Positions 8,365 to 27,094 of a stretch of 64,000 bases of DNA are shown in pieces. A program made the position numbers and the translations under genes. The notes beneath the pieces are model-generated. The model made no database searches. It saw nothing but the letters and a program-made list of their open reading frames with translations, and was not told the origin of the DNA. The DNA is from Candidatus Aquidulcis sp. (lineage in GTDB: Bacteria; Chloroflexota; Anaerolineae; Anaerolineales; UBA4823): NCBI GenBank assembly GCA_020723385.1, contig DYIZ01000003.1:13009-77008 (forward strand), given 5' to 3'. Positions within the stretch are counted from its first letter, which is position 1. Each line of letters begins with the position of its first letter.

Positions 8365-9525
8365 TTATTGCAAATATTTCAATCCCAACCCGGTGTTGAA
8401 CAGAACGATGCGCTCATCGGGTTTTACCCAGCCCTGGGCAACCAGCATCTCCAACCCCGCCAGGGTGGCCGCGCCCTCCGGAGCGGCGAAAATCCCCTCA
8501 GCCACAGCCAATCGCTTCTGGGCTTTGAGAATCGCTTCGTCGCTGACGGCCAGGGCCGTTCCGCGGCTGTCACGCAAAATCTTGAGAATGAGGTAATCGG
8601 CAAAGCTCTTGGGCACGCGCAGCCCGGAGGCAATCGTCTGCGCGCCAACCCAAAAATCGCAGAAGGATGCTCCTGCATCGAAAGCCCGCACCACCGGTGC
8701 GCAACCCGAAGCCTGCACAACAACCATGCGCGGGCGGGCTTTATTTTCCAGCCAGCCGAGGGCTTCCATCTCATCAAAGGCTTTCCACATCCCCACCAAC
8801 CCCGTCCCACCTCCGGTTGGATAAACGATCACATCCGGCAGCTCCCAGCGGAAAGTCTCGGCCAGCTCATAGCCCATAACCTTCTTGCCTTCGGCCCGAT
8901 AGGGTTCCTTGAAAGTCGAGATGTCGAACCAGCCCTCATCGCGGGCTTTCTCGCCAGCCATGCCCGCCGCCTCGCTGATCAGCCCGTCTATCAGGATCAC
9001 CGTCGCTCCGGCGATGCGGCTTTCTTCCACGTTTGCCAGCGGCGTGTCTTTGGGCATGAAGATACACGCTTCCATCCCGCCGCGGGCGGCATAAGCCGCC
9101 ATTGCCCCGCCGGCGTTGCCCGCCGTAGGGATGATGACCCGCCGGATGCCCAGTTCCCTGGCCTTCGATACCGCCGCCGACAGCCCGCGCGCTTTGAACG
9201 AACCGGTAGGATTCAGGCTTTCATCCTTCAGATACAACCGTTCGAGACCCAGCTCGCTCCCCAACCGGGGTAGAAGCAGCAAAGGGGTGTCGCCTTCTCC
9301 CAGGCTGAGAATGTGCGCCGGGTTGTACACCGGCAGCAGCTCACGCCAGCGCCACATCCCCTGCGGGCGGCGACGCACCATGTCACGATCGAGGTGAGCG
9401 CGAGCTGTCTCCAAATCGTAGCGGGCCAGGAGCGGCGACTGACAATCGAAGCAGTATTTTTGAACCTGATCGGCGGCAAAACTGCGCCTGCAATCCGAAC
9501 ATTCGAGATGGCTGAGATAAGACAT
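8365..9525 (-). CDS. thrC: Threonine synthase (PLP-dependent)
   Basis: Zn-ribbon-like CSDC...CFDC N terminus; LSLGEGDTPLLLL; PLP-Lys motif NPTGSFKARG; PTAGNAGGAMAAYAARGG; YPTGGGTGLVGMWKAF. Start MSYLSHLECS at 9525. Confidence 0.9.
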   Translation of the reverse strand: MSYLSHLECSDCRRSFAADQVQKYCFDCQSPLLARYDLETARAHLDRDMVRRRPQGMWRWRELLPVYNPAHILSLGEGDTPLLLLPRLGSELGLERLYLKDESLNPTGSFKARGLSAAVSKARELGIRRVIIPTAGNAGGAMAAYAARGGMEACIFMPKDTPLANVEESRIAGATVILIDGLISEAAGMAGEKARDEGWFDISTFKEPYRAEGKKVMGYELAETFRWELPDVIVYPTGGGTGLVGMWKAFDEMEALGWLENKARPRMVVVQASGCAPVVRAFDAGASFCDFWVGAQTIASGLRVPKSFADYLILKILRDSRGTALAVSDEAILKAQKRLAVAEGIFAAPEGAATLAGLEMLVAQGWVKPDERIVLFNTGLGLKYLQ

Positions 9526-9538
9526 GAAAACCTCGGGG

Positions 9539-9916
9539 TCAGGCAGCGGTGGGCAGAAGCATTTCCACCCGGTTCCATAGTTCACGGATGCTGACCGGCT
9601 TGGCCAGGTAAAGATTACAACCAGCTTGCAAAGCCTTTTCTGCGTCGCCGTCGAGGGCATTCCCGGTGAGAGCGACCATGGGCGTCTGCGCCAGCCCGGG
9701 TTGACCCTCCCGAATGCGGCGGGCTACCGTATAGCCATTCATATCGGGCAGGTTGATGTCAAGCAAGATCACATCTGGCAGTTGAGCTTCCGCCAGTTTA
9801 ATGCCTTCCTCGCCATTGCGTGCCAAAAGCACGTGAAACCCCCGTGCCTCGAAAACCCTTTTGACCAATTGACAGGTGCTGGGATCGTCCTCGATGCAAA
9901 GAATCGTTTTGGACAT
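9539..9916 (-). CDS. Stand-alone CheY-like receiver (REC) protein, 13 nt upstream of thrC
   Basis: ILCIEDDPSTCQLVKRVFEARGF...DVILLDINLPDMNGY...MVALTGNAL...CNLYLAKPV; acidic pair, phospho-Asp, Thr and Lys present. Confidence 0.93.
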   Translation of the reverse strand: MSKTILCIEDDPSTCQLVKRVFEARGFHVLLARNGEEGIKLAEAQLPDVILLDINLPDMNGYTVARRIREGQPGLAQTPMVALTGNALDGDAEKALQAGCNLYLAKPVSIRELWNRVEMLLPTAA

Positions 9917-10146: not shown

Positions 10147-13100
10147 ATGCCCCAAGATCGTCTTTCGAGCCAGTTAGAAACGATGCGCCAGCAGGTGACA
10201 GCCCTGCTCGATCAACCCGGGATCAGGCGGCACGTTGACGCGCTCCAACAGTTTCGCACCAGCATAGACGATCTGGAAAATCTCATCCATCAGCAGGCTG
10301 CCGAAGATCAGCAGCGGCACGAAACCCACTTCCAGGCGCTGATCGAATACGCTTCAGACATCTCTTTGATTCTGAAACCGGATGGGATCATCAGCTACAT
10401 AGGACCGTCTGCCCAACGATCACTCGGTTACCGGCCCGAAGATCTCATCGGTGACCCGATTTATGATTACGTTCACCCGGACGACCGTGAGGCCGGTATA
10501 GAGCAATTCCAACATCGGATACTGACCCCCGGGTGCCATGCCGAGCCGATAGAGATACGCATACGCAGCAAAGCAGGCGAATGGCGGGTCTTTGAGGGCG
10601 CCACCGTCAACCTGGTAGACGATCCCGCGATTGGCGGGCTGGTGATCAACGCCCGTGATGTAACCGAGCGCTCGCTCTCACAACAAGCCCTGAAAGCGAG
10701 CGAGGAAAAATTCCACGCAATTTTCGAGTTGTCGCTGGATGGGCTGGCGCTGATTGATAAAAACGGCAAGATCGTCGAGTGGAATCGCGGGCAGGAAGCC
10801 ATCACCGGCCTGCAGCGCAGCGAAGTGATCGGGCAATTTTTGTGGGACGTGATGTATCTGCTCACACCCGACACGCCCCAATCGCTGGATGGCTACAACA
10901 GGATGAAAGCCGGGACTCAAACCTGGTGCCGCACAGGTGAAGCCCCATGGGGGCAAGGCGCGATGACCGTCACCATCAAATGCCCCGACCAATCGAAACG
11001 GTCTGTGGAAATATCCGTCGCTGTCTTGGGCCTTGAACACGGCCGGCAGCTTGCGGTCACCACCCACGACATCACAGCTTTCAAACAGGTCGAGCAAGCT
11101 TTGCGGTCGAGCGAAGCCCGCTACCGGGGCATGATCGAAGATCAGGCCGAGCTGGTTTGCCGGTGGCTGTCCAACGGTATCACGATCTATGCCAATGAAG
11201 CCTACTGCCGAGCCTTCGGCCTGAAACGCGAGGCGGTAGTGGGCAGTAATTTCCTTTCATTCACTGCCGAAGATGACCTCCCGGCTATTCGTGAAAAAAT
11301 CTCGGCGCTCACCCTCAACCAACCTTTAGTAACCTGTGAACACCGCGTGATCCTGCCGGGCGGGGAGGTACGATGGCAGCATTGGGCGCACCGGGCTATC
11401 TTTGACCGGCGCAACCGCATCACCGAATACCAGTCCACCGGGTTCGACATCACCGAACAGGTGCGGGCTCAGCACCAATTGATGGTGGTCAATCACGCCG
11501 CCCAGGCGATCACGGCCCGGCTGGATCTCGATCAGGTGCTGGCGGCGATTCTGGAAGAGATGCGCACCCTGCTCGGGGTGAGCGCCTGCTCGGTCTGGCT
11601 CGTAGAGGCCAACAACGATATCGTCTGCCGGCAGGCAAGCGGGGCGCGCAGCGAGATGGTGCGCGGCTGGCGGCTGAAACCTGGGGAGGGAATTGCCGGC
11701 AACGTTGCGCTCTCCGGGGCCAGCACCATCGTTTTGGACACACGCACTGACCTGCGTCACCAGCGGAGGGTGGGGCACACCATCGGCATGGAGCTGCGCT
11801 CGATCCTGTGCGTCCCGGTGAAGAGCCAGGAGCGCGTGGTCGGCGTTTTGCAAGCCGTGGATACTCAGCCGGGCCGCTTCACCCACTCGGATTTGGAGCT
11901 GGTGGAAATGCTGTCGGCCTCGGCGACAATTGCCATCGAAAATGCCGGGTTGTATACGAGCCTGCGCGAAAACGAGGAAAAATACCGGGCAGTCGTCGAG
12001 AACATTTCAGACATTATTTTACTGATGCAGGCAGATGGCGCCTTGATCTACGCCAACCAGGCGGTCGAGCGGTTATTCGGCTACCCTCGGGAGCAGTTGA
12101 TCGGCAAAAACCCAATGGAATTGCTCCACCCTGATGATTCTGAAATTATCCGGATAGCTTTCCAGAATGAGACTGCCGCCAATGGGGTCAACAATACACC
12201 TAAACGGATGCGCGCCAGGCATCGCGACGGTTCGTGGCGGACTCTGGAAGGCATGGCGATCAGCTTGCTCGATAACCCGAGCATCCAGGCCGTGATGGTC
12301 GTCGCCCAAGACATCACCGACCGGGTCAGGGCAGAACAAGCCATTCAGGAGAGCGAGGCGCGCTATCGGATGTTGATCGAAACCTCGCCCGATGCCATTA
12401 TGCTGACCGATTTGGACACCCGCATTATCCTGGCTAACCAGCGCACTGCTGAATTATTCGGCTTCAATCACGCCCAGGAGCTAAATGGATTAAACGCTAC
12501 AGATTACATCATCCCCACCGACCGGGAACGCGCCTACGACAACTTGAAACTCGCCATCGAACGAGGCAGCCTGTCGGGGGCAGAATACACCATGCTTCGT
12601 AAGGATGGGGGACACTTCTTCGGTGAGATTACAGTTTCAGTGCTGATTGACCCCGGCGGTAAGCCTCGGGCAGTTATCGCAATCTTGCGCGATATCACCC
12701 AACGTAAGGAAATCGAACGACAAATCCAAAGTTACACCGCCCGCCTCGAATCCTTGCTTCGCAGCGCATCCCAATTGAACGCCCACCTCAACCTGGCCGC
12801 GACCCTGCACACGGTTTGCGAAGAGGCCGCTCACGCCCTGAATGTCCCGGTGACAGCGCTCTATCTCTACGATCAGTTCTCAGATACCCTCAGCCCGGCC
12901 AGTGGTTTTGGCATCCCAACGGAAGAATTCCAGCGTATGCCAGTCATTCCACGCGCCATGTATGATGCTGTGGCCCAGCAATACGGATCCATTGGCGAAC
13001 TGCCAGACCTGGCCGTCGAGCCGCTGGCGCTCGTCACCGACTTAGTTGCCCGTAGCAACGCCAGAACATTGGTGTACGTCTCGATTTGGCGTGACAAAGG

Positions 13101-14877
13101 GCTGATCGGTACACTCAATATCTTCACCATGGGGTCTGTTCGGCACTTCACCAACGAAGAGCGCGCCCTGCTCCAGGGTTTGGCCGACCAGGCTGCCCTG
13201 GCGATTACCAATGCCCGCCTGTTCGATGAGCAGCAGCAAACCCAGGCTCGCATCCAGCGCCTGCTCGACCAGCAGCTTGCACTCAACCAATTAGCGCTGG
13301 CTTTGGGTGAATATACCGATACCGCCAGGGTTTATCAGACCCTCTATGAGCACGTCTCGCACTTGATGGATACAGATGGCTTCATCCTGGCTTTGTGCAA
13401 TGACCGCTCAACGCAGATCACCGCAGCTTACGCCGTCACCGAAGGGCAACCCATTAATATCTATGAGCTGCCGCCGCTGCCAATCGGGCCAGAGGACGAA
13501 GGCACCCAAAACCAGGTGATACGGTCTGGTCATGCCATGTACATACCGAACCTGGACAATGTCGAACATAAGCTGTACACCCTGCAGGATGCGACAAAAA
13601 GCAACAGCGAGACCCATAGCAGCCGGCCGCGGGTCATGTCAGCAGCTTATGTGCCGATGAAAGTCCTGGGTAAAACGATCGGCGTGATCCAGGCGCAAAG
13701 CTATCGTCCGAGTGCGTACACCACCGATGATGTCGAGCTGCTGGAAGCAGTCGCCAACGTGGCGGCAACCGCCGTTCAAAATGCCCGCCTGGTTGAAGAC
13801 CTGCGCCACTCGGAGGAAAAATACCGCACGATCTACGAAAATGCCATCGAAGGCATCTTCCAGAGCACCCCCGACGGCCAATTCATCAGCGCCAACCCGG
13901 CTGTAGCGCGCCTGCTTGGATTTGCGACCCCCGAAGACCTGATTGCCAGCATTCACGACATCAGCCAGCAGTTGTATGTGGATCCGGAACGGCGTAAAGA
14001 ATTCGCACGCCTCACCGCTCAGGAAGGCATAGTGCGCGGCTTCGAAGCGCAGTTGCGGCGGAAAGACGGCAGTATCATCTGGCTGTCAGAAAATACCCGC
14101 GCCGTCAATGACGCCGATGGCCGCCTGCTTTATTACGAAGGCACGCTGGAAGATATCACCGACCGGAAGCTGATGCAGACCCGTATGATTCACGCCGACC
14201 GGTTGTCTGTGGTAGGCCGGCTGGCGGCATCCGTCGCCCACGAGATCAACAACCCCTTGCAATCGGTGCTCGGATGCATGGGGCTGGCTCAAGAAGCGCT
14301 CGACGAGGGCGGCGATGCCCGCAAGTACATGCAAATCGCCCGGGATGAGCTGCGCCGAATGGCGCGCATCGTCGCCCGCATGCGAGATCTCTACCGGCCT
14401 GTCTCTGGCGAGAAAAAACCGACCAATATCAACACCCTGATCGAAGAGTCCCTCGAAGTCAGCCGGAAGCGCTGCCAGGAAGCCCAGGTCGAGCTTACAT
14501 GGCAGTTAGCCGATAATTTGCCCGATCTGCTCGTTTCGCCGGATCAAATCAAACAAGTTTTTCTGAACCTGATTCTCAACGCGCTAGACGCCATGCCGGA
14601 GGGCGGCAAACTACGCGTGAGCACCCTGCGGGATGAAGCCTTCCCTCGGGTTGGGGTGCGCTTCGAGGATTCCGGCGACGGCATCCCCGCCAGCACACTC
14701 GCCCACATCTTCGACCTGTTTTACACAACCAAACGAGAAGGCTCCGGCCTGGGATTGTCTATCAGCAAGAATATCATCGAACTGCACGGCGGCACTATCG
14801 AGGTGACCAGCCAGGATAAAGTAGGCTCGACATTCACGATCTGGCTGCCCCTGCCGCCGGCTGGGAAAACTGCGTAG
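10147..14877 (+). CDS. Multi-sensor histidine kinase (about 6 PAS and 3 GAF domains, HisKA, HATPase)
   Basis: Repeated PAS motifs (YASDISLILKPDGIISYIGPSAQRSLGY; FELSLDGLALIDKNGKIVEWN), GAF segments, H-box LAASVAHEINNPLQSVLG, SGLGLSISKNIIELHGG. Confidence 0.95.
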   Translation: MPQDRLSSQLETMRQQVTALLDQPGIRRHVDALQQFRTSIDDLENLIHQQAAEDQQRHETHFQALIEYASDISLILKPDGIISYIGPSAQRSLGYRPEDLIGDPIYDYVHPDDREAGIEQFQHRILTPGCHAEPIEIRIRSKAGEWRVFEGATVNLVDDPAIGGLVINARDVTERSLSQQALKASEEKFHAIFELSLDGLALIDKNGKIVEWNRGQEAITGLQRSEVIGQFLWDVMYLLTPDTPQSLDGYNRMKAGTQTWCRTGEAPWGQGAMTVTIKCPDQSKRSVEISVAVLGLEHGRQLAVTTHDITAFKQVEQALRSSEARYRGMIEDQAELVCRWLSNGITIYANEAYCRAFGLKREAVVGSNFLSFTAEDDLPAIREKISALTLNQPLVTCEHRVILPGGEVRWQHWAHRAIFDRRNRITEYQSTGFDITEQVRAQHQLMVVNHAAQAITARLDLDQVLAAILEEMRTLLGVSACSVWLVEANNDIVCRQASGARSEMVRGWRLKPGEGIAGNVALSGASTIVLDTRTDLRHQRRVGHTIGMELRSILCVPVKSQERVVGVLQAVDTQPGRFTHSDLELVEMLSASATIAIENAGLYTSLRENEEKYRAVVENISDIILLMQADGALIYANQAVERLFGYPREQLIGKNPMELLHPDDSEIIRIAFQNETAANGVNNTPKRMRARHRDGSWRTLEGMAISLLDNPSIQAVMVVAQDITDRVRAEQAIQESEARYRMLIETSPDAIMLTDLDTRIILANQRTAELFGFNHAQELNGLNATDYIIPTDRERAYDNLKLAIERGSLSGAEYTMLRKDGGHFFGEITVSVLIDPGGKPRAVIAILRDITQRKEIERQIQSYTARLESLLRSASQLNAHLNLAATLHTVCEEAAHALNVPVTALYLYDQFSDTLSPASGFGIPTEEFQRMPVIPRAMYDAVAQQYGSIGELPDLAVEPLALVTDLVARSNARTLVYVSIWRDKGLIGTLNIFTMGSVRHFTNEERALLQGLADQAALAITNARLFDEQQQTQARIQRLLDQQLALNQLALALGEYTDTARVYQTLYEHVSHLMDTDGFILALCNDRSTQITAAYAVTEGQPINIYELPPLPIGPEDEGTQNQVIRSGHAMYIPNLDNVEHKLYTLQDATKSNSETHSSRPRVMSAAYVPMKVLGKTIGVIQAQSYRPSAYTTDDVELLEAVANVAATAVQNARLVEDLRHSEEKYRTIYENAIEGIFQSTPDGQFISANPAVARLLGFATPEDLIASIHDISQQLYVDPERRKEFARLTAQEGIVRGFEAQLRRKDGSIIWLSENTRAVNDADGRLLYYEGTLEDITDRKLMQTRMIHADRLSVVGRLAASVAHEINNPLQSVLGCMGLAQEALDEGGDARKYMQIARDELRRMARIVARMRDLYRPVSGEKKPTNINTLIEESLEVSRKRCQEAQVELTWQLADNLPDLLVSPDQIKQVFLNLILNALDAMPEGGKLRVSTLRDEAFPRVGVRFEDSGDGIPASTLAHIFDLFYTTKREGSGLGLSISKNIIELHGGTIEVTSQDKVGSTFTIWLPLPPAGKTA

Positions 14878-14892
14878 CAATTGGAGCACGGA

Positions 14893-15618
14893 ATGACAGA
14901 ATCACTCTCGATGCTGGTCGTTGACGATGAACCGAATGTATGCTTTTTTCTGAAAGAAGTTCTGGAAAAAGCCGGGCATCGAGTGACAACCCTTTACAGC
15001 GGTGAAGAAGCCCTGTCTTACCTGCGGGACCAATCCTTCAACCTGGTGATTGTGGATCTGAAATTGGGTGGGGCTGTGGATGGGCTGCGGGTGCTCGAAG
15101 CCGTGAAATGGCGCTGGCCCGATACGAGCGTTATCATCCTCACCGCACATGGCTCGCTCGAATCAGCCATGACCGCCATCCGCGTGGGGGTAGACGGCTA
15201 CCTGCTCAAGCCGGTCGAGCCGGAGGATGTTCGCCAGGCGATTGTAGAGGTGCTCGGTCGTCGCCGCCAACCGACAAACCACACCAGCCCCGAAGATTCG
15301 CTCCTAAATCATGGCGACTTGTCTCTCAATACGAATAAACACCAGGCAACCCTGCAAGGCAAGCTGCTCGACCTGACGCCCAACGAGTTCACTCTACTGG
15401 CTCATTTTTTGCAGAACGCTCAAAAAGTGGTGACGCCCAGCGATCTGGTGTGGGCACTGCACCGCTACGAAGCCGACAATGAGCGCGAGGCCCGGGAAAT
15501 CGTGAAGTGGTACATTTATCGCCTGCGGCGCAAAATCGAACCGGACCCCGAAAATCCCCGCTACATCCTCAACGTGCGCGGTGTGGGTTACACTCTCGGC
15601 CCACCGATCTTGTCATAG
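14893..15618 (+). CDS. Response regulator: REC plus OmpR-type winged helix
   Basis: MTESLSMLVVDDEPNVCFFLKEVLE...NLVIVDLKLGG; DLTPNEFTLLAHFLQN...IVKWYIYRLRRKIEPDPENPRYILNVRGVGY. Confidence 0.94.
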   Translation: MTESLSMLVVDDEPNVCFFLKEVLEKAGHRVTTLYSGEEALSYLRDQSFNLVIVDLKLGGAVDGLRVLEAVKWRWPDTSVIILTAHGSLESAMTAIRVGVDGYLLKPVEPEDVRQAIVEVLGRRRQPTNHTSPEDSLLNHGDLSLNTNKHQATLQGKLLDLTPNEFTLLAHFLQNAQKVVTPSDLVWALHRYEADNEREAREIVKWYIYRLRRKIEPDPENPRYILNVRGVGYTLGPPILS

Positions 15619-15641
15619 TCAGGTGAAACGCCAAACCATCG

Positions 15642-15682
15642 AGTAAAACTCCCGAGGTTTCCAAAACTTCGGGAGTTTTACT
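15642..15682. terminator. Hairpin GTAAAACTCCCGAGGTTTCCAAAACTTCGGGAGTTTTAC
   Basis: 13-bp outer arms followed by a T-rich 3' arm, just downstream of the 14893 gene. Confidence 0.75.
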
Positions 15683-15787
15683 AACCCGATTCCAACCAAG
15701 TCCCAACCTACCCCAACATCCGCTCCCACCCATGTCGGTGTGTTCCAGAGCGGATGTTTTGTTATAAAAGGTAGGGAGTAATGACCC

Positions 15788-16162
15788 ATGTCGCGTAAAA
15801 AGCGGATACTTATCGTTGAAGATGAAGCGCAAGTTCTATTCGTAGCCTCCGAAGGGCTGAAGAAATTAGGCGCGGGCTACGAAATCCTGACCGCCACGCA
15901 CGGCCTCGAAGCGCTGGCGATCATCCGGCAGTCCCCGGTAGATTTACTCATCACCGATTTGATGATGCCTGGTATGGACGGCGTCACGCTCACTGAGGTC
16001 GTCAAAATGACCGACCCTGGTACACGCGTTATCTGGATTACCGCTCTCGACCAGCGTGAGGCTGACGCACAAAGGCTTTCGGTCTATCGTTATCTCATCA
16101 AACCTCTCGACGTTATCGAAATTCGCAACGCGGCGAAGGAAATTCTTTCCAAAGACGGGTAG
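15788..16162 (+). CDS. CheY-like receiver protein
   Basis: RILIVEDEAQVLFVASEGLKKLG...DLLITDLMMPGMDG...YRYLIKPLDVIEIRNAAKEIL. Confidence 0.93.
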   Translation: MSRKKRILIVEDEAQVLFVASEGLKKLGAGYEILTATHGLEALAIIRQSPVDLLITDLMMPGMDGVTLTEVVKMTDPGTRVIWITALDQREADAQRLSVYRYLIKPLDVIEIRNAAKEILSKDG

Positions 16163-16199
16163 GCTTTCCAGCGGGGAGCCAGTAGAAAGGACAAAGATC

Positions 16200-17030
16200 A
16201 TGAGCGGTTATAAACGCATTTTGGTCGTTGATGACGAAGAGCAAGTCGTTTTCGTCTTGCGAAACAGCCTGCAAAAGCTCGGCAGCATGTATGAAATCGT
16301 TACCGCCAATAGCGGCCAGGAAGCACTGGAAAAAGTCCGCAATGGCTCATTCGATTTGCTGATTACAGATTTACGTATGCCAGGCATAGACGGCATCTCG
16401 TTGACCGAGGCCGTTCGGGAGACGGATCCAGATACAAAAGTTATCTGGATTTCAGCCTACGACCACCTGGCGACTGATGCCAACCGGCTGGGCGTGTATC
16501 GTTACGTTGCCAAGCCACTGGATGTCACAGAAATCCGGCAGATCGCCCGCGAAGGCCTGGGGATCGCCGAACCCCAGGCGGGATCGGTTGTACCACCGGC
16601 TTCGGGCTGGCAGGTCGCGTCACCAGTCACGACGCCGATTACCGAAAACATCGAACCGATCCTCGTCATGGACGATGACACAGATCTGCGCCGTCTGCTA
16701 TGCAAAACCCTGGACAAAATGGGATACCGCACCTATCCAGCTTGCACGATCCAGGAAGCCGATCAGTTGCTGCACCAACATCGTTTCTCGATCCTTCTGT
16801 GTGACGTTCACATGGGCGAGGAGCGTAGCACGGATATGCTGAAAACGCATCTCGACGAGCTGAAACAGCAAGGCACTCATGTTGTGATGATTTCAGGCGA
16901 CTCACGCCAGCGAGATGTTTGTGAAGGGATGGGAGTCGAGTTCTATATCGAGAAACCGATTTCGTTGATGCCGCTGGTCACGTTGATCCGGCGGTTGACG
17001 GGCGCCACCCGAGGGGGGCTGACGGTTTAG
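16200..17030 (+). CDS. Response regulator with two tandem REC domains
   Basis: Start MSGYKRILVVDDEEQVVFVLRNSL; REC1 LLITDLRMPGIDG; REC2 PILVMDDDTDLRRLLCKTLDKMGY...LLCDVHMGEER. Confidence 0.92.
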   Translation: MSGYKRILVVDDEEQVVFVLRNSLQKLGSMYEIVTANSGQEALEKVRNGSFDLLITDLRMPGIDGISLTEAVRETDPDTKVIWISAYDHLATDANRLGVYRYVAKPLDVTEIRQIAREGLGIAEPQAGSVVPPASGWQVASPVTTPITENIEPILVMDDDTDLRRLLCKTLDKMGYRTYPACTIQEADQLLHQHRFSILLCDVHMGEERSTDMLKTHLDELKQQGTHVVMISGDSRQRDVCEGMGVEFYIEKPISLMPLVTLIRRLTGATRGGLTV

Positions 17031-17105: not shown

Positions 17106-20100
17106 ATGAAATACCCGATCAAAATGTCCCTGCGTGTCAAGCTCATCCTGGCTTTCCTTTTTATCGCCATTGCTGCCCTTGGCACGTTTGCTTTCTTGAG
17201 TAATACCAGGATGGCCAGCATCCTCACGAATCAAACCAACCAAAGATTACATATGTTGGCTTCCACCCAGGCTGAAGTCATCAGTACATTGATTATCAAC
17301 CGCATCACAGCTATGAAACTCCTAGCTGTAAACGACATCATTGCAGAGGCAGCAGATGCCCAAAATGCCAGCTACCGAGATACAACGGCCGCGATCCTGG
17401 CTAATTTGTCAATCCTGGATGACCAATGGAAAGCGGCTGCCGATGATTCCAGCTTGATCCGCACCTATTTAACCAATCCGGCCGCCAACGAATGTCTGGA
17501 ATTCAAGCAAAACCTGCCTGATTTTACCGAAGTTTTTTTGACAGACCGCTACGGAGGCCTGGCCGCAGCCAGCGACCGCACATCGAATTATTACCATGCA
17601 GATGAAAATTGGTGGCAAGCTGCCTATAATAATGGCCATGGCGGCATCTTCGTTGACAAGCCTGAACTCGATAAAGACAGCGGAATCTTCAGCATCAATA
17701 TAGCCATCCCTGTCTATTCGGAAGAACACGGGGCAATCGTGGGCGTTCTGCGGTCAACGCTTGACATCACTGCGTTGATCCAGTCCATGAAATCTACAGG
17801 CAACGATACAACAGCCGCTGATTTACTCTTTCCGGACGGTAGTATCTTATCCCATACAGGCGATACGGAAACTCTCGACCCAGAAGTAGTAAACAAGTTC
17901 GCATCCCCGGCTGACACGGCTGATTTTATGCACGACGGCGTGCGTATCCTGGCGAAAGCGGAAAATGTAACATCGAACACAGAATCCTTTGTTAATGATT
18001 TAGGCTGGCGGGTGATTTCACATCAGTCACGCAAAGAGGCCATGGCGACTTTGACACAAAGCATGCGCTACACGCTTGTTCTGACCATCGGCGTCATTGT
18101 CCTCTCCGTTGTGACAGCCCTCATCATGTCCCGGCAGTTGACCCGCCCGATTGCCAAGTTGAGCGAGGTGACGGCGCGCATCACCGAAGGCGATTTGTCG
18201 GCCCGCGCCCCAATCGTTTCCAAAGACGAGATCGGAGATTTAGCCGCCCGCTTCAACCAGATGGTCGGCCAGGTGAACAGCCTGATTCTCGACACCAACT
18301 TCAAAAGCCAGGAATTGGCTGGCCGCACAGCCCAATTGGAAGCCAATCAGCGAGCCCTGCAAGTCGTATTTTCGGCAAGCAGTACCGTTCAATCGTCCGA
18401 ATTGTTGAGCCTGGTAGTCAACCTGATCCGGGACCGGTTCAACCTCTACCACGTGCAAATGTATCTGGTTGACCCTGAACGCCAAGCTGCCGTGTTGAGC
18501 CAGAGCACCGGTTATGCCGGTCAGCAGCTCCTACTAAAACACCACAGCATACCCCTCGAAAAGCAATCCCTCGTCACGAAAACCGTCCGCGATGGCAAGC
18601 CGGTCTTGGTGGATGACGTCAGCCAGGATCCAGATTTTCTCCCAAATCCACTCCTGCCCGATACCCGCTCGGAACTGTCTATCCCGCTAAAGATCGGCGA
18701 CGAAGTGATCGGCGTACTGGATGCGCAAAGCCGCGACCTGGATTATTTCAACCCAGACCGGGTGGAATTGTTCGAGACCATCGTCAATCAGGTAGCGCTG
18801 CTGTTCCGCAACAGTGAATTGTTTACGAAACTGGCAGAACAGTCGGAATCGCTGCGGCTTTACACCAGCCAGTTGAGCACCGCCTCCGAGGTAGCCCGGC
18901 GGGTGAGCAGCATTCTCGATCTCGACCAATTATTGAGCGAAGTCGTCGAGCTGATGCAGAGCCGGTTCGGACTGTATCACGTTCACATCTATCTTCTCGA
19001 TAAAACCAGTGACACGCTCACCGTCAAAGCAGGCTCCGGCGAGGTTGGTAAAATCCTGAAAGAACGGGGACACGGCATCCCGTTGGATCGCGAAAAGAGC
19101 CTGGTGGCGCGTTCAGCCCGCGACCGCAAGACCATTGTCGTCAATGATACCGCACTGCAATCTGATTTCATGCCCAATCCCCTGCTCCCCCAAACCCGCT
19201 CGGAGTTGTCAGTGCCTCTGATGATTGGCGATCAGGTGTTGGGTATCCTGGATGTTCAGGATGACCAGGTTAACCGGTTCACTCAATCGGATATGGATGT
19301 TTTCAACACCCTGGCCGGGCAGGTCGCATCGGCTTTGCAAAACGCCCATCTCTTCGAGGCGCAAAAACAAGCCGAAGCTGCCGTCCGCCAAAGCGAGGAA
19401 CGCCTGCGCTCGGTCTTCGACAACATGCAGGATGTGGTTTACCGCACCGATCTGCAGAGCCGCCTGATTTGGGTGACGCCATCAGCTTCAGAGATGTTTG
19501 GCTATCCGAAGGAAGAAAATCTCATCGGGCGGAACGTGCTCGATGAGGCCTATGTCCATCCCGAAGAACGCCAGAATATCCTGAAAGAGTTGACTAAAAA
19601 AGGAAGGATCTCAGATTACGAGCTAGAGATGCGCCGGGCAGACGGCTCCATATTTTGGGGCAGTATTTCGGCCTGTTTCTTCAATGATACTGAGGGCAAC
19701 ATCGCCGGAATCGAAGGTACTTTCCGAAACATCAACGAGCGCAAGCACGCTGAAGAACGGGTGCGCATCTTCCAGGCTCTGGCCGAGAACGCCGGCGACG
19801 CCATCATTATGGGCGGGCTGGATGGCAAGTTGTCTTACGCCAACCGGGCAGCTTACGAGCTTTCAGGCTTCGACTACGCAACCGAGAAGGGCGCTCTGCT
19901 CGGCGCGAATATGGCTTCCATGGCCCCGGATGCGCAGCTTCCCAGGCAGATCGAGGCGCTCCAGCAAATCATGACGACCGGTAAAAGCTGGAGCGGCGAA
20001 GTGCAAGCCCGGCGGCGCGACAATAGTGTTGTGGATGTCGCCATGACCATGTTCCCCGTGCTCGGAGAAACCGGCCAGCCGATCAGCATTGCGGCCATTA

Positions 20101-21383
20101 TGCGCGACATCACCGAACATAAACAAGCAGAAGAACAACGGGCGCGGTTCACTACTCAGCTCCGCACTGCTGCCAACGTCGCCGGGCAGATCACCACCGT
20201 GCTGGATGTTGACGAACTGCTGGCGCAAGTTGTCACCCTATTGAAAGAAAGTTTTGATCTCTATCACGTTCACATCTACACCTTCGACAGCCTCATCGAA
20301 GACCTGGTGATGCGGGCAGGATACGGCGAGCCGGGGCGAGTCATGAAAGAGAGCGGCCACAGAATCCCGCTGAGCCGGGAGCAATCCCTGGTCGCCCGCG
20401 CCGCCCGCACTCGCCAGAGCGTTATCGTAGACGATGTTACCCAGACGGTGGATTTCATGCCGAACCCCCTGCTCCCCGAGACTCGCTCGGAGGTAGCCGT
20501 TCCCCTCATGATCGGCGAAAAAATCCTGGGCGTCTTCGATGTCCAGCACAACCTGCCGCATTACTTCACTTCGGCAGACCTCGACGTTTTCAATACCCTC
20601 TCCGGCCAAATTGCCTCTGCCCTGCAAAATGCCGCTCTCTTCGAGGAGACGCAAAGGACTGCCGAGCGCTTGCGCGAAGTGGACCGCCTGAAGAGCGAAT
20701 TCCTGGCGAGCATGAGCCATGAGCTGCGCACCCCACTCAACTCCATCATCGGTTACGCCGAAGTGCTGCTGATGGGCATTGACGGCGATATGAATCCCGA
20801 AACCCAGGAGGATGTCCAGGCGATCTTCGACAACGGCCAGCATCTGCTACGCCTGATCAATGATGTGCTCGACCTGGCCAAGATCGAAGCCGGGCGTCTC
20901 AACCTCAAATTTGAAGATGTGAACGTGCCCGATCTGCTCGAAGAGGTGAAGACCAATAACATGGGGCTGATCCATAAAAGCATGAAACCCGTCGAATTCA
21001 TGACAGGGGTCGGCGGGAGCTTCGCGCCGCTGCATGCCGACCCGCTGCGCTTGAGCCAGATCCTCAATAACCTGGTCTCGAACGCGGTCAAATTCACTGA
21101 AAAAGGCTGCATCGAGTTGAGCGCCCGCCAGGAAAATGGCTGGACGGTCATCGAAGTTAAGGATACCGGCATCGGCATCGAGGCAGAAAACCTGGAGAAG
21201 ATATTCGATAAGTTCCGCCAGGTAGACGGCTCCAGCAAACGCCGCGCCGAAGGCACCGGCCTGGGACTGGCGATTACACGCTCGTTGGTGCAGATGCACG
21301 GCGGCTCGATCACCGTCCATAGCAAGCCCGGAGAGGGCAGCGCCTTCATCGTCCGCTTGCCGAACGCCGGGCCGCAGGAATAA
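17106..21383 (+). CDS. Sensor histidine kinase: Cache-like, HAMP, 3 GAF, 2 PAS, HisKA, HATPase
   Basis: CAGGAGG upstream of MKYPIKMSLRVK; three near-repetitive GAF segments containing (F/M)xPNPLLPxTRSE; H-box LASMSHELRTPLNSIIGYAEV; GTGLGLAITRSLV. Confidence 0.95.
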   Translation: MKYPIKMSLRVKLILAFLFIAIAALGTFAFLSNTRMASILTNQTNQRLHMLASTQAEVISTLIINRITAMKLLAVNDIIAEAADAQNASYRDTTAAILANLSILDDQWKAAADDSSLIRTYLTNPAANECLEFKQNLPDFTEVFLTDRYGGLAAASDRTSNYYHADENWWQAAYNNGHGGIFVDKPELDKDSGIFSINIAIPVYSEEHGAIVGVLRSTLDITALIQSMKSTGNDTTAADLLFPDGSILSHTGDTETLDPEVVNKFASPADTADFMHDGVRILAKAENVTSNTESFVNDLGWRVISHQSRKEAMATLTQSMRYTLVLTIGVIVLSVVTALIMSRQLTRPIAKLSEVTARITEGDLSARAPIVSKDEIGDLAARFNQMVGQVNSLILDTNFKSQELAGRTAQLEANQRALQVVFSASSTVQSSELLSLVVNLIRDRFNLYHVQMYLVDPERQAAVLSQSTGYAGQQLLLKHHSIPLEKQSLVTKTVRDGKPVLVDDVSQDPDFLPNPLLPDTRSELSIPLKIGDEVIGVLDAQSRDLDYFNPDRVELFETIVNQVALLFRNSELFTKLAEQSESLRLYTSQLSTASEVARRVSSILDLDQLLSEVVELMQSRFGLYHVHIYLLDKTSDTLTVKAGSGEVGKILKERGHGIPLDREKSLVARSARDRKTIVVNDTALQSDFMPNPLLPQTRSELSVPLMIGDQVLGILDVQDDQVNRFTQSDMDVFNTLAGQVASALQNAHLFEAQKQAEAAVRQSEERLRSVFDNMQDVVYRTDLQSRLIWVTPSASEMFGYPKEENLIGRNVLDEAYVHPEERQNILKELTKKGRISDYELEMRRADGSIFWGSISACFFNDTEGNIAGIEGTFRNINERKHAEERVRIFQALAENAGDAIIMGGLDGKLSYANRAAYELSGFDYATEKGALLGANMASMAPDAQLPRQIEALQQIMTTGKSWSGEVQARRRDNSVVDVAMTMFPVLGETGQPISIAAIMRDITEHKQAEEQRARFTTQLRTAANVAGQITTVLDVDELLAQVVTLLKESFDLYHVHIYTFDSLIEDLVMRAGYGEPGRVMKESGHRIPLSREQSLVARAARTRQSVIVDDVTQTVDFMPNPLLPETRSEVAVPLMIGEKILGVFDVQHNLPHYFTSADLDVFNTLSGQIASALQNAALFEETQRTAERLREVDRLKSEFLASMSHELRTPLNSIIGYAEVLLMGIDGDMNPETQEDVQAIFDNGQHLLRLINDVLDLAKIEAGRLNLKFEDVNVPDLLEEVKTNNMGLIHKSMKPVEFMTGVGGSFAPLHADPLRLSQILNNLVSNAVKFTEKGCIELSARQENGWTVIEVKDTGIGIEAENLEKIFDKFRQVDGSSKRRAEGTGLGLAITRSLVQMHGGSITVHSKPGEGSAFIVRLPNAGPQE

Positions 21384-21395
21384 CCTGTTGATTTG

Positions 21396-21440
21396 GAGTG
21401 CAGGGCTTTAGCCTGCTCATGTTGGCGGTCTAAAGACCGC
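21396..21440. repeat. Two adjacent palindromic REP-like units (GCAGGGCTTTAGCCTGC; GCGGTCTAAAGACCGC)
   Basis: Inverted repeats read directly at 21400-21416 and 21425-21440. Confidence 0.6.
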
Positions 21441-21466
21441 AATCCAGTAGATTTGGAAAAACGCTT

Positions 21467-23563
21467 ATGCCAACCCTGTTCAGTGCCGTCGTTTGCTGTG
21501 AATGCGGCCTGGAGATGCCCCCCGACCCGTTCGCCACGCGCTGCCCGGCGTGCAAGAGCCAATGGCTAGAAGCCCGCTACGATTGCCAGGCGCTGGCAGC
21601 CCGCTGGGGATGGCGGCCAGGCCAGCGCGCCACACCTCCCGGCCTGGCGGCGCGCCCAACCAGCCTGTGGCGGTACACCGAGCTGCTGCCAACCTCCGGC
21701 GATACGGCCCCTGTCTCCCTGGGCGAAGGCTGGACGCCGATAACCCGTGCCGAAGCCCTCGAATTAGAAACCGGACACGACGGCCTTTGGATAAAAGACG
21801 AGCGCCAGCAGCCCACCGGGTCTTTCAAAGACCGCCAGGCTTCCGTCGCGATCAGCGCCCTCATGGCGCAAGGCATCAACGAAATCGCGTTGGCGTCCAC
21901 CGGCAACGCCGCCGCCGCTTACGCTGCCTATTGCGCCCGCGCCGGGATCAAGCTGTGGGTTTTCCTCACCAGCAGCGTGCCCAACGAGAAAATGCGCGAG
22001 CTGGCTCTGTACGGCGCGGAGGTTGTCAAGATCGCCGGAACCTACGATCAGGCCAAAGAAATCGCCGCCGATTTCGCCTCACGGCGCGGTATTTACCTCG
22101 ACGGCGGGGCCAAAGCTATCCCCTGCAAAGAGAGCATGAAAACCATCGCCTTCGAGATCGTCGAACAGATGGGATGGACCGCCCCCGATTGGTATATCCA
22201 GGCCGTCTCGGGGGGCATCGGCCCGCTGGGAGTGCTCAAGGGCTTCATCGAGTTGTACGAGGCTGGCATCACCAACCGCGTCCCCCATCTGGGGATCGTG
22301 CAAACCCAGGGATGCGCCCCGATGGTGCAGGCCTGGAATCGCAAACTGGCCCACGCCGAGGCCGTGCAGCCCGACAGCCTGATCACCGTGCTCTCCACCG
22401 GCAACCCGGGATATTCGTATGTTCTGCTCAAACGGCTGATGGATACTTATGGGGGCGCGATGACCGCTGTCAGCGATGGCGACGCTTTCCGGGCGATGCG
22501 CCGCGTCGCCCGGCAGGAAGGGATTTCGATGGAACCGGCGGCCAGTGTGGCTTTTGCCGGGCTGGATAGATTCCTGGCCCAGGGGGATATCAAACCTGGC
22601 GAGCAGGTGGTCGTTAATTGTTCGGGGCACACCTTCAGCGCCGAGAAACACGCCCTCGAGGATCGCTACACACTGAGTCTGAATACCACTGCCGGTCACC
22701 GCCCCATCGAAGGCCTGGCTGCCGCGCTGGAAGAACTCGACGAGCAAGTTACCACCCTCGTTGTCATTGACGACAACCCCCACGACAACCGCCTGATTCG
22801 CCGCTTGCTCCAGAGCTACAAACATTACCGCGTGTTCGAGGCCTACACCGGGCGTGACGGCATTGACCTGGTGCGCCAGCGCCGCCCCGATTTGGTGATC
22901 CTCGACCTGACCCTGCCCGACATGGATGGCTGTACCATCCTGTCCACCCTGCACGCCGACTCCCAGGTCAGCCAAATCCCCGTCATCGTCATCTCGGCCC
23001 GGTCGCTCACCGCCGCTGAGCAGGAATACCTGCACCGTTATACCGACTCGATCTGGCAGAAAGGCAATTTCAGCGCCCGCGAACTGGTCAGCCACGTGGT
23101 CGAGGTACTGGGAGATGATGTCAGTGAGCTGGAACCGCTGCTGCCGCCGAAAGCTGAGATTCACCCGGTGAGCAGTTTCGGCCAGGGGCAGCGCACCCGC
23201 ATCCTCGTCGCCGAAGATAACGTATGGGAGGCACGGCTGATGCGCCGCCTGTTCGAATCGCGCCAGCGCTTCGAGGTTGTGGAAACCTACACTGCCGCCG
23301 AGGCCCTGGCGGCCATCGCACAAAAAATGCCTGATCTGGTTCTGCTGGATTTGTTGTTACCCGATATGGCTGGAGAAAAGTTATTGGAACAATTGCGAAC
23401 ATCAGAGGCCACCCGGCAACTGCCGGTAGTCGTCATCACCGCCAAAGACCTGGAACCGCAGGAATTGGCCAGCCTCTCGAGGCAGGCATCATCGGTTTGG
23501 TCAAAGGGCAACCTCGACCGGAGCAGCCTGCTGGCCCATGTCGAGGCGCTCCTGCCGGGGTAG
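21467..23563 (+). CDS. Threonine synthase-like PLP enzyme fused to two C-terminal receiver (REC) domains
   Basis: N-terminal CCECG...CPACK ribbon, SLGEGWTPI, PLP-Lys QPTGSFKDRQA, ASTGNAAAAYAAYCARAG, then REC1 (VVIDDNPHDNRLIRRLLQ...DLVILDLTLPDMDG...SIWQKGNF) and REC2 (ILVAEDNVWEARLMRRLFE...DLVLLDLLLPDMAG...SVWSKGNL) in one uninterrupted 698-aa ORF. Confidence 0.92.
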   Translation: MPTLFSAVVCCECGLEMPPDPFATRCPACKSQWLEARYDCQALAARWGWRPGQRATPPGLAARPTSLWRYTELLPTSGDTAPVSLGEGWTPITRAEALELETGHDGLWIKDERQQPTGSFKDRQASVAISALMAQGINEIALASTGNAAAAYAAYCARAGIKLWVFLTSSVPNEKMRELALYGAEVVKIAGTYDQAKEIAADFASRRGIYLDGGAKAIPCKESMKTIAFEIVEQMGWTAPDWYIQAVSGGIGPLGVLKGFIELYEAGITNRVPHLGIVQTQGCAPMVQAWNRKLAHAEAVQPDSLITVLSTGNPGYSYVLLKRLMDTYGGAMTAVSDGDAFRAMRRVARQEGISMEPAASVAFAGLDRFLAQGDIKPGEQVVVNCSGHTFSAEKHALEDRYTLSLNTTAGHRPIEGLAAALEELDEQVTTLVVIDDNPHDNRLIRRLLQSYKHYRVFEAYTGRDGIDLVRQRRPDLVILDLTLPDMDGCTILSTLHADSQVSQIPVIVISARSLTAAEQEYLHRYTDSIWQKGNFSARELVSHVVEVLGDDVSELEPLLPPKAEIHPVSSFGQGQRTRILVAEDNVWEARLMRRLFESRQRFEVVETYTAAEALAAIAQKMPDLVLLDLLLPDMAGEKLLEQLRTSEATRQLPVVVITAKDLEPQELASLSRQASSVWSKGNLDRSSLLAHVEALLPG

Positions 23564-23572
23564 TGAAATCAT

Positions 23573-23968
23573 ATGGATACAAAGCCCGCCACCATTCTAT
23601 ACATCGAAGACAACTTCCACAACCGGCGGTTGGTGCGGAAGATCCTGCAATCACGCGGGTTCATCGTTATCGAAGCCGAAGATGGTCTCAGCGGGTTGGA
23701 ACTGGCGCGCTCTCTCGAACCGGCGCTGGTGCTGCTCGATATTGGCTTGCCGGGGATGGATGGGCTGGAAGTCATGGCGCATATCCGGGCTGAACCCAAC
23801 TTACAGCACACCCTCATCATCGCCCTGACCGCTTCGGCGATGCGCGGCGACCGGGAACGCTTTCTGGAAGCTGGCTGCGACGATTACATATCGAAGCCAG
23901 TGCAGGCGATGGAATTGATCACCAAAGTGGAAGCCCACCTCTCGCATAATGGGCAAGGCCACAAGTAA
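23573..23968 (+). CDS. CheY-like receiver protein
   Basis: ATILYIEDNFHNRRLVRKILQSRGF...LVLLDIGLPGMDG...IIALTASAM...CDDYISKPVQ. Confidence 0.93.
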   Translation: MDTKPATILYIEDNFHNRRLVRKILQSRGFIVIEAEDGLSGLELARSLEPALVLLDIGLPGMDGLEVMAHIRAEPNLQHTLIIALTASAMRGDRERFLEAGCDDYISKPVQAMELITKVEAHLSHNGQGHK

Positions 23969-25633: not shown

Positions 25634-27094
25634 ATGGGTAATCCAATCAAGGTATTGTTCCTGGCATCCGAGGCCGATCCCTTCGTCAAAGTCGGCGGCC
25701 TGGGCGATGTTGCCGGCTCGCTCCCGAGAGCAATTCGCCAACTCAACGTGACGCCGGATGCGGAGGTTGACATCAGGCTGGTGATCCCGCTCCATGGGGT
25801 CATTCTCCGGGAGACTTACGATCTGCGCTCCGTGGCGAAGTTCACCGTGATGCACAGCGGGGGGACAATCCCAGCCGAGGCATTTGCCACCGATTTGAAC
25901 GGCCTGACGGTCTATCTGATCTCTGGCCCGCCAATACCCCCAGAGGTCAAAGTGTACTCAGACGATTGGGGCTTTGACGCACACAAGTATATCTTCTTCT
26001 CGCTGGCTGCGCTAGAGTTGGCACGCGCATTGGGCTGGCAGCCTGATATCCTCCACGCCAACGACTGGCATACCGCGGCAGCCATCTATTGGCTGGCGCT
26101 TCACCGGGAGGCTGATTCCTTCTTCAACCATACGAAAACGGTGTTAAGTGTCCACAACCTGCCTTATCTAGGCACGGGCGGCAGTTATCCGTTGGATGCT
26201 TTTGGCTTGCCGGCGACGAAAGATGTCTCCCTCCCAGAGTGGGCGCGTCATCTGCCCCTGCCTTTGGGCTTACTGTCTGCTGACCGCATCGTCACCGTCT
26301 CGCCCACCTATGCCCAGGAAATACTCACCCCCGATTACGGCGCGGGTCTCGATGATTTCCTGCGGTCACGGGCCGATACGGTATACGGCATTCTCAATGG
26401 GCTGGATATGGAACGCTGGAATCCTGAGACTGACCATCACCTGGTCGAGCGTTTCTCTCCGGGTGATTTAAAGCCTCGCCTGGCCAATAAAGCCACTTTG
26501 CAGTTGGATTTTGGTTTTACCCCCGACCTGGGAATACCGTTGCTGGCGATGATCAACCGGATGGATTATCAAAAGGGAGTGGACCTGGCTTTCGAAGCGC
26601 TGCGCCAGATTTCAGACCTGCGCTGGCATGTGATTTTGCTGGGCACCGGGCTGCCGGAATTGGAAGAATCAGCCCGCCATCTGGAGCGCAACATCCCCGA
26701 CCGGGTGCGCTCCGTCATCCGCTTCGATGCGCCGCTCAGCCGCCGCATCTATGCCGGGGCTGACTTGCTGCTCATCCCATCGCGGTACGAGCCGTGCGGG
26801 TTGGTACAAATGATCGCTATGCGTTACGGATGCGTACCCGTCGCCCGGTCAACCGGCGGCCTGCAGGACACAATTCACGACGAAAAAGAAAATCCAGCAT
26901 CCAGAGCTGACGGCTTCTTATTTCAGGAAGCCACGGCTGAGGCGCTGGCTGAGGCGCTCCGCCGCGCCCTGGCAGCGTACACCAATAAACGGCGCTGGCA
27001 GGCGATCCAGCGGCACGGAATGCGCCAGGATTTCTCGTGGGAGAAATCGGCCCGAGGCTATACGGCGTTGTATAGAAAACTTCTAAATCCATAA
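25634..27094 (+). CDS. glgA: Glycogen/starch synthase
   Basis: KVLFLASEADPFVKVGGLGDVAGSLPRAI; ILHANDWHTAAA; NRMDYQKGVDL; LIPSRYEPCGLVQMIAMRYGCVPVARSTGGLQDTI. Confidence 0.96.
   Translation: MGNPIKVLFLASEADPFVKVGGLGDVAGSLPRAIRQLNVTPDAEVDIRLVIPLHGVILRETYDLRSVAKFTVMHSGGTIPAEAFATDLNGLTVYLISGPPIPPEVKVYSDDWGFDAHKYIFFSLAALELARALGWQPDILHANDWHTAAAIYWLALHREADSFFNHTKTVLSVHNLPYLGTGGSYPLDAFGLPATKDVSLPEWARHLPLPLGLLSADRIVTVSPTYAQEILTPDYGAGLDDFLRSRADTVYGILNGLDMERWNPETDHHLVERFSPGDLKPRLANKATLQLDFGFTPDLGIPLLAMINRMDYQKGVDLAFEALRQISDLRWHVILLGTGLPELEESARHLERNIPDRVRSVIRFDAPLSRRIYAGADLLLIPSRYEPCGLVQMIAMRYGCVPVARSTGGLQDTIHDEKENPASRADGFLFQEATAEALAEALRRALAAYTNKRRWQAIQRHGMRQDFSWEKSARGYTALYRKLLNP

Follow-up and report, generated by a model that had tools for sequence, protein, structure and literature searches.

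A PALP-REC fusion family in Chloroflexota: a candidate response regulator with a PLP-enzyme output

Within the 64,000-nucleotide stretch of DNA that was analyzed (the window), one gene at positions 21467-23563 (+ strand) encodes a 698-residue protein in which a zinc ribbon and a fold-type II PLP domain (PALP) are followed by two receiver (REC) domains. PALP-REC proteins of this type form a large family in the phylum Chloroflexota, with members in two or more of its classes and in many of its families. Our preferred and, on balance, probable reading is that the protein is a response regulator with a catalytic PLP-enzyme output, whose substrate specificity has changed and whose activity is switched by phosphorylation.

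Reading frame and domain layout of the fusion gene

The gene starts with ATG and contains no internal stop. Its product opens with a zinc-ribbon-like CxxC...CxxC segment with four conserved cysteines (residues 10-29; 21494-21553, +), followed by the PALP domain (residues 83-387; 21713-22627, +), which matches PF00291 with 230 bits against a cut-off of 35 and carries the Schiff-base Lys121 (codon 21827-21829, +) in the motif PTGSFKDR. The receiver domains (PF00072) occupy residues about 429-550 (REC1; 22751-23116, +) and about 577-696 (REC2; 23195-23554, +), and the Pfam Response_reg model is matched in two stretches with 128.7 bits, against a cut-off of 30.2. Both hold the acidic pair, phospho-acceptor Asp and Lys of a response regulator: D435/D436, D480 (codon 22904-22906, +), S510 and K532 in REC1, and E583/D584, D628 (codon 23348-23350, +), T658 and K680 in REC2. 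The same polypeptide includes the PALP domain with its cofactor residues intact, the arrangement expected of an enzymatic output. The open reading frame check and Pfam agree with the earlier note, made from the letters alone, which had described a single 698-residue frame with a zinc ribbon, a PALP domain and two REC domains; the Schiff-base motif and the acidic pairs, Asp and Lys of both RECs that it named are all present.

These residues are conserved beyond the window. Cysteines C10, C13, C26 and C29 are invariant in our first alignment of fused proteins (30/30) and are kept in at least 21 of the 22 members of a two-REC set composed of 20 fetched loci, the window protein and locus L163. D480 and K532 are likewise invariant in an alignment of 30 fused proteins and, together with D628 and K680, in all 22 two-REC proteins. 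In AlphaFold models the PALP cores are confident and the linkers are of low confidence (pTM 0.59 for the window protein, 0.59-0.69 across models); no REC-PALP contact is predicted in these models, whose linker confidence is too low to place REC docking.

Distribution and history of PALP-REC fusions

An even sampling of the phylum Chloroflexota (400 genomes) contained 42 genomes with PALP-REC proteins, of which six belong to one genus outside the class and 41 are among the 284 high-quality genomes of the sample. When 41 related genomes were searched, the scores fell into two well-separated groups: full-length matches, at about 480-610 bits, were PALP-REC fusions, usually with one REC and 550-600 residues long; matches below 182 bits were ordinary threonine synthases, and the few intermediate ones were pieces of fusion genes. 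Four fusions are encoded by the source genome itself (the window copy, C48, C80 and C204). Among the best 80 loci listed in a contig scan of genomes, 78 could be read as single open reading frames and all 78 combined PALP with REC, including those of the cultured Bellilinea caldifistulae and Longilinea arvoryzae; the record titles of these 80 loci name Chloroflexi or Anaerolineae, except for one Blastopirellula. REC fusions to PLP enzymes, which the earlier note considered uncommon, are therefore standard within Chloroflexota in their PALP-REC form. Mapping of the PALP plus Response_reg architecture over so many genomes also rules out occurrence in a single genome, and the relatives recovered in the 41-genome and 400-genome searches led us to reject an orphan gene. 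Viral contigs that we searched contained no related protein, and no phage or plasmid record aligned to 80% of the query at a single site; viral or plasmid spread is thus without support from these searches. The sole REC-less member seen among the loci examined (L068:7897-9474) has a shortened PALP in frame with an EamA transporter and has lost its REC, as a remnant or deletion product.

The two-REC form was searched for with the window protein as query in 396 genomes of the class, a very strong match being defined as E <= 1e-190. Such matches occurred in 42 of the 396 genomes. Apart from the source genome, 30 genomes in eight other families gave a match that reached residue 694-698 with no stop; all 20 newly fetched loci were PALP-REC-REC. 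These counts bear on the possibility that an assembly or annotation error joined separate enzyme and REC genes, which might be suspected in a fragmented draft of 239 contigs whose examined relatives of the same order are without the second REC. Recurrence in independent assemblies refutes such a chimera and leaves it a vanishingly small probability: the 78 readable loci come from other records, and the 30 genomes with an uninterrupted PALP-REC-REC frame share the same kinase/REC context. A stop at the enzyme/REC junction, by which the earlier note would have recognized an artefact, is not found in these assemblies.

Within the two-REC set, PALP is the best-conserved part, with a median identity to the window copy of 63%, compared with 58% for REC1 and 42% for REC2. 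The window fusion has its closest relatives (up to 68% identity) in different orders of the class. Two further window genes, the canonical threonine synthase gene and a flanking gene at 25634-27094 that is presumably a glycogen synthase, have their best matches within their own order. The discordance means that the two-REC gene either arrived by lateral transfer or disappeared from many relatives. In the REC tree, REC1, REC2 and the terminal REC of the hybrid kinases form one group (support 96/93), apart from the free-standing RECs, so REC2 probably originated in the lineage of REC1 and the hybrid-kinase RECs. The same separation gives no support to the idea that the free REC downstream was the source of REC2.

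Gene neighbourhood and the proposed phosphorylation switch

Upstream of the fusion, at 17106-21383 (+), lies a sensor histidine kinase with the Pfam layout dCache-HAMP-GAF-GAF-PAS-PAS-GAF-HisKA-HATPase. The earlier note called it a hybrid kinase, a description that has to be dropped, as Pfam finds no Response_reg match in this protein. The REC gene that it placed directly downstream is confirmed by Pfam as a free-standing REC protein of 131 residues (23573-23968, +), which begins nine bases past the fusion. Before the kinase are a single REC protein (15788-16162, +; open reading frame and Pfam) and a two-REC protein (16200-17030, +; the longest frame starts at 16056). The region 10147-17030 as a whole is a dense signalling cluster, with a second giant sensor kinase, an OmpR-type regulator, and the REC and REC-REC genes. 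The 83-base gap between kinase and fusion includes two palindromes (21390-21457) that are part of a repeat dispersed through the source genome (27 matches); they may represent a small mobile element or act as an attenuator.

An adjoining kinase is a regular companion of the fusion. It lies upstream in 110 of 115 one-REC loci and in 19 of 21 two-REC loci (129 of the 136 testable), compared with a background of 9.7% of distant open reading frames in the same loci. A free REC follows the fusion in 18 of the 22 two-REC loci and in 13 one-REC loci. Three arrangements can be distinguished among relatives. Type A, which resembles the window and also occurs in the genus outside the class, consists of a histidine kinase without REC, PALP-REC, a free REC and sometimes a canonical threonine synthase (ThrC). 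Type B, a one-REC form, has the order sensor(s), ParA-like ATPase, GAF...HK-REC-REC, PALP-REC and EamA transporter, with an OmpR-type regulator and a REC-HK convergent to the operon. A hybrid kinase precedes the commonest one-REC form (88 of 115). Of the 112 one-REC loci in which the downstream gene could be tested, 86 have EamA there, a count that leans to type B since the listed sequences are those closest to a query of that type. Type C, a small branch (L041, L061 and L178), adjoins peptide deformylase and is without a kinase. As side observations, the five-gene operon of sensor, ParA, hybrid kinase, PALP-REC and EamA is conserved across Anaerolineales (L117, L140 and most listed loci), L040 has a Methyltransf_19 protein in place of ParA, and the further neighbours in L041 and L061 include an ARMT1-like phosphatase, an AIRS-domain protein and a ParA-NifU fusion.

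Since the kinase is adjacent, the phospho-acceptor residues are intact and the REC is covalently attached, phosphorylation control is the simplest reading, and the kinase at 17106-21383 is the likely phosphodonor. After autophosphorylation it would transfer the phosphate to Asp480 in REC1 and perhaps also to Asp628 in REC2; the resulting switch would alter how the PLP domain dimerises, how it closes or where it is located, raising or lowering its activity without transcription, and the free REC at 23573-23968 could serve as a phosphate sink or a second output. In the commonest operon form, the downstream EamA gene suggests an exported product, which this transporter would carry. Against a kinase-switched enzyme weigh the three type C loci and two others, L160 and L161, which also have no adjoining kinase. 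The earlier note had proposed a direct two-component link to amino-acid metabolism. Since a large family retains both the adjacent kinase and the fused REC, a link of this kind to an amino-acid-type enzyme is still the best reading, although the threonine synthase assignment is doubtful and the kinase is not hybrid. A broader picture would be a kinase-gated metabolite signal found throughout the Chloroflexota lineage, in which sensor kinases act on a new PLP enzyme by phosphorylation, directly and not through a transcription factor, and the adjacent EamA exports the small amino-acid-derived compound that the enzyme makes; we consider it improbable in this full form.

Descent, substrate pocket and comparison with known systems

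The descent of the PALP half is clear: threonine synthases are its best matches by sequence, among curated models as well as among solved structures, and they also give the best PDB fold matches to the model of the fusion (2zsj and 2d1f). The PALP fold and PLP Schiff-base lysine of a threonine synthase are both present. Nevertheless, the fusion scores below the NCBIfam cut-offs for NF006050 (PRK08197; 269.8 bits vs 303) and TIGR00260 (159.4 vs 167.1), and two further fused proteins also fall under the curated threonine synthase cut-offs. A canonical threonine synthase is encoded outside the cluster by a separate gene at 8365-9660 (- strand), with 580 bits to PRK08197 (cut-off 303). In the tree, the fused clade stands apart from ThrC with a support of 100, and 25 positions that are at least 97% fixed in this clade are absent from nine reference synthases.

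We mapped residues in the numbering of the Thermus (Tt) threonine synthase, comparing 127 fused proteins with the nine references. Lys121 is present in 127 of 127, the equivalents of Tt Lys61, Asn87, Glu287 and Thr317 are kept, and Glu356, the Asn loop, the Gly loop and the Ser/Thr of the pyridine-nitrogen site are retained in essentially all members. The STGN and SGGxG loops, the PLP lysine and the zinc cysteines are invariant or nearly so, which indicates strong constraint on the enzyme half. The site of Tt Arg160 differs: it is Ser, Ala, Cys, Thr or Pro in 125 of 127 fused proteins (the five commonest residues counted; Arg is absent), Cys in the window protein, and Gly, Cys or Ser in all 22 two-REC proteins. 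The site of Tt Arg/Lys242 is Ala or Ser in 127 of 127, whereas all nine references retain both R160 and R/K242. We take Arg160 and related loop residues to contact the substrate phosphate in the 1v7c complex. Other sites changed relative to Tt are Asn154 (Gly in all), Ser155 (mostly Ala) and Thr88 (Val or Ala); because the canonical ThrCs of these genomes are likewise without Thr88, Asn154 and Ser155, the argument on specificity is carried by Arg160 and Arg/Lys242.

The residue pattern is, as far as sequence can tell, that of an active PLP enzyme with altered specificity, and because a key substrate-pocket Arg is replaced in every member, the fusion is probably not an ordinary threonine synthase. 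The name given in the earlier note is difficult to maintain for a protein that scores below the NCBIfam cut-offs, has lost the phosphate-loop Arg in common with all fused proteins, and shares the window with a canonical gene. That it is nonetheless a genuine threonine synthase, converting O-phosphohomoserine to threonine at a rate set by REC phosphorylation, seems unlikely to us. Its best matches are of that kind, some clusters also include a canonical ThrC, and the presence of ThrC within three open reading frames of the fusion in six one-REC loci fits a threonine-related role and counts against changed specificity. Moreover, R/K216 in the same loop as the lost Arg is Arg or Lys in 109 of 127 fused proteins and could compensate for it, so that a phosphorylated substrate such as O-phosphohomoserine may still be used. 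The sub-threshold scores, the loss of both basic residues with Asn154 replaced by Gly throughout, and the ThrC already present in the source genome speak against this identity.

A different proposal is that the PALP half is non-catalytic and adjusts the RECs as a ligand sensor (amino acid or PLP), a dimerisation module or a scaffold; one example would be a metabolite-gated phosphate sink for the kinase. The altered pocket, the free RECs and REC-only proteins beside the fusion, and the second REC, which favours a signalling role, would all suit it. Yet the retained Schiff-base Lys, Asn and Gly loops, pyridine-nitrogen Ser/Thr and Glu356 exceed what a pure scaffold needs, and PALP is the most conserved domain of the two-REC proteins; we regard this proposal as a minority possibility that deserves consideration, and a catalytic output with changed specificity as the preferred one. 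If the RECs control the PLP domain, a direct switch from kinase to metabolic enzyme has been kept across a large bacterial lineage. The automatic annotation "threonine synthase" would probably be wrong for hundreds of genes, and PALP-REC points to an uncharacterised PLP activity with an adjoining transporter. The fusions of the cultured Bellilinea and Longilinea are ordinary soluble proteins, which makes such a switch amenable to testing.

Compared with ThrC (PRK08197/NF006050), the fusion has the same zinc ribbon, PALP fold, SFKDR Schiff-base motif and overall alignment, but adds REC domains, falls below the curated cut-off, and replaces the phosphate loop NSxNPxR or KEPYR with G-A-(R/K)-(S/T)-I-x-(S/A/C/G). 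Cysteate synthase/CapA2 (9k3c), its sixth-best solved sequence match, has likewise diverged from threonine synthase and uses a different substrate; however, it has no REC and its similarity is low, at 75.9 bits with the family profile, and the fusion scores 141 bits with TIGR03844 against a cut-off of 324.9. The Arabidopsis threonine synthase (2c2b) is an allosteric enzyme activated by S-adenosylmethionine (PMC9081730), and thus resembles PALP-REC in placing an extra control layer on the threonine-synthase fold, although its effector is a small molecule and PALP-REC carries a phosphorylatable REC. No PALP-REC fusion or PALP output was found in the literature searched, to which the 2006 and 2010 response-regulator censuses do not belong. 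Response regulators with an enzymatic output, in which REC is joined to a metabolic enzyme, are a recognised kind, and their archaeal examples have a narrow phyletic range (Galperin et al. 2018, PMC5847659). In contrast to those, PALP-REC spans many Chloroflexota families and at least two classes in conserved operon forms, and is a new, conserved form of this already recognised type of fusion.
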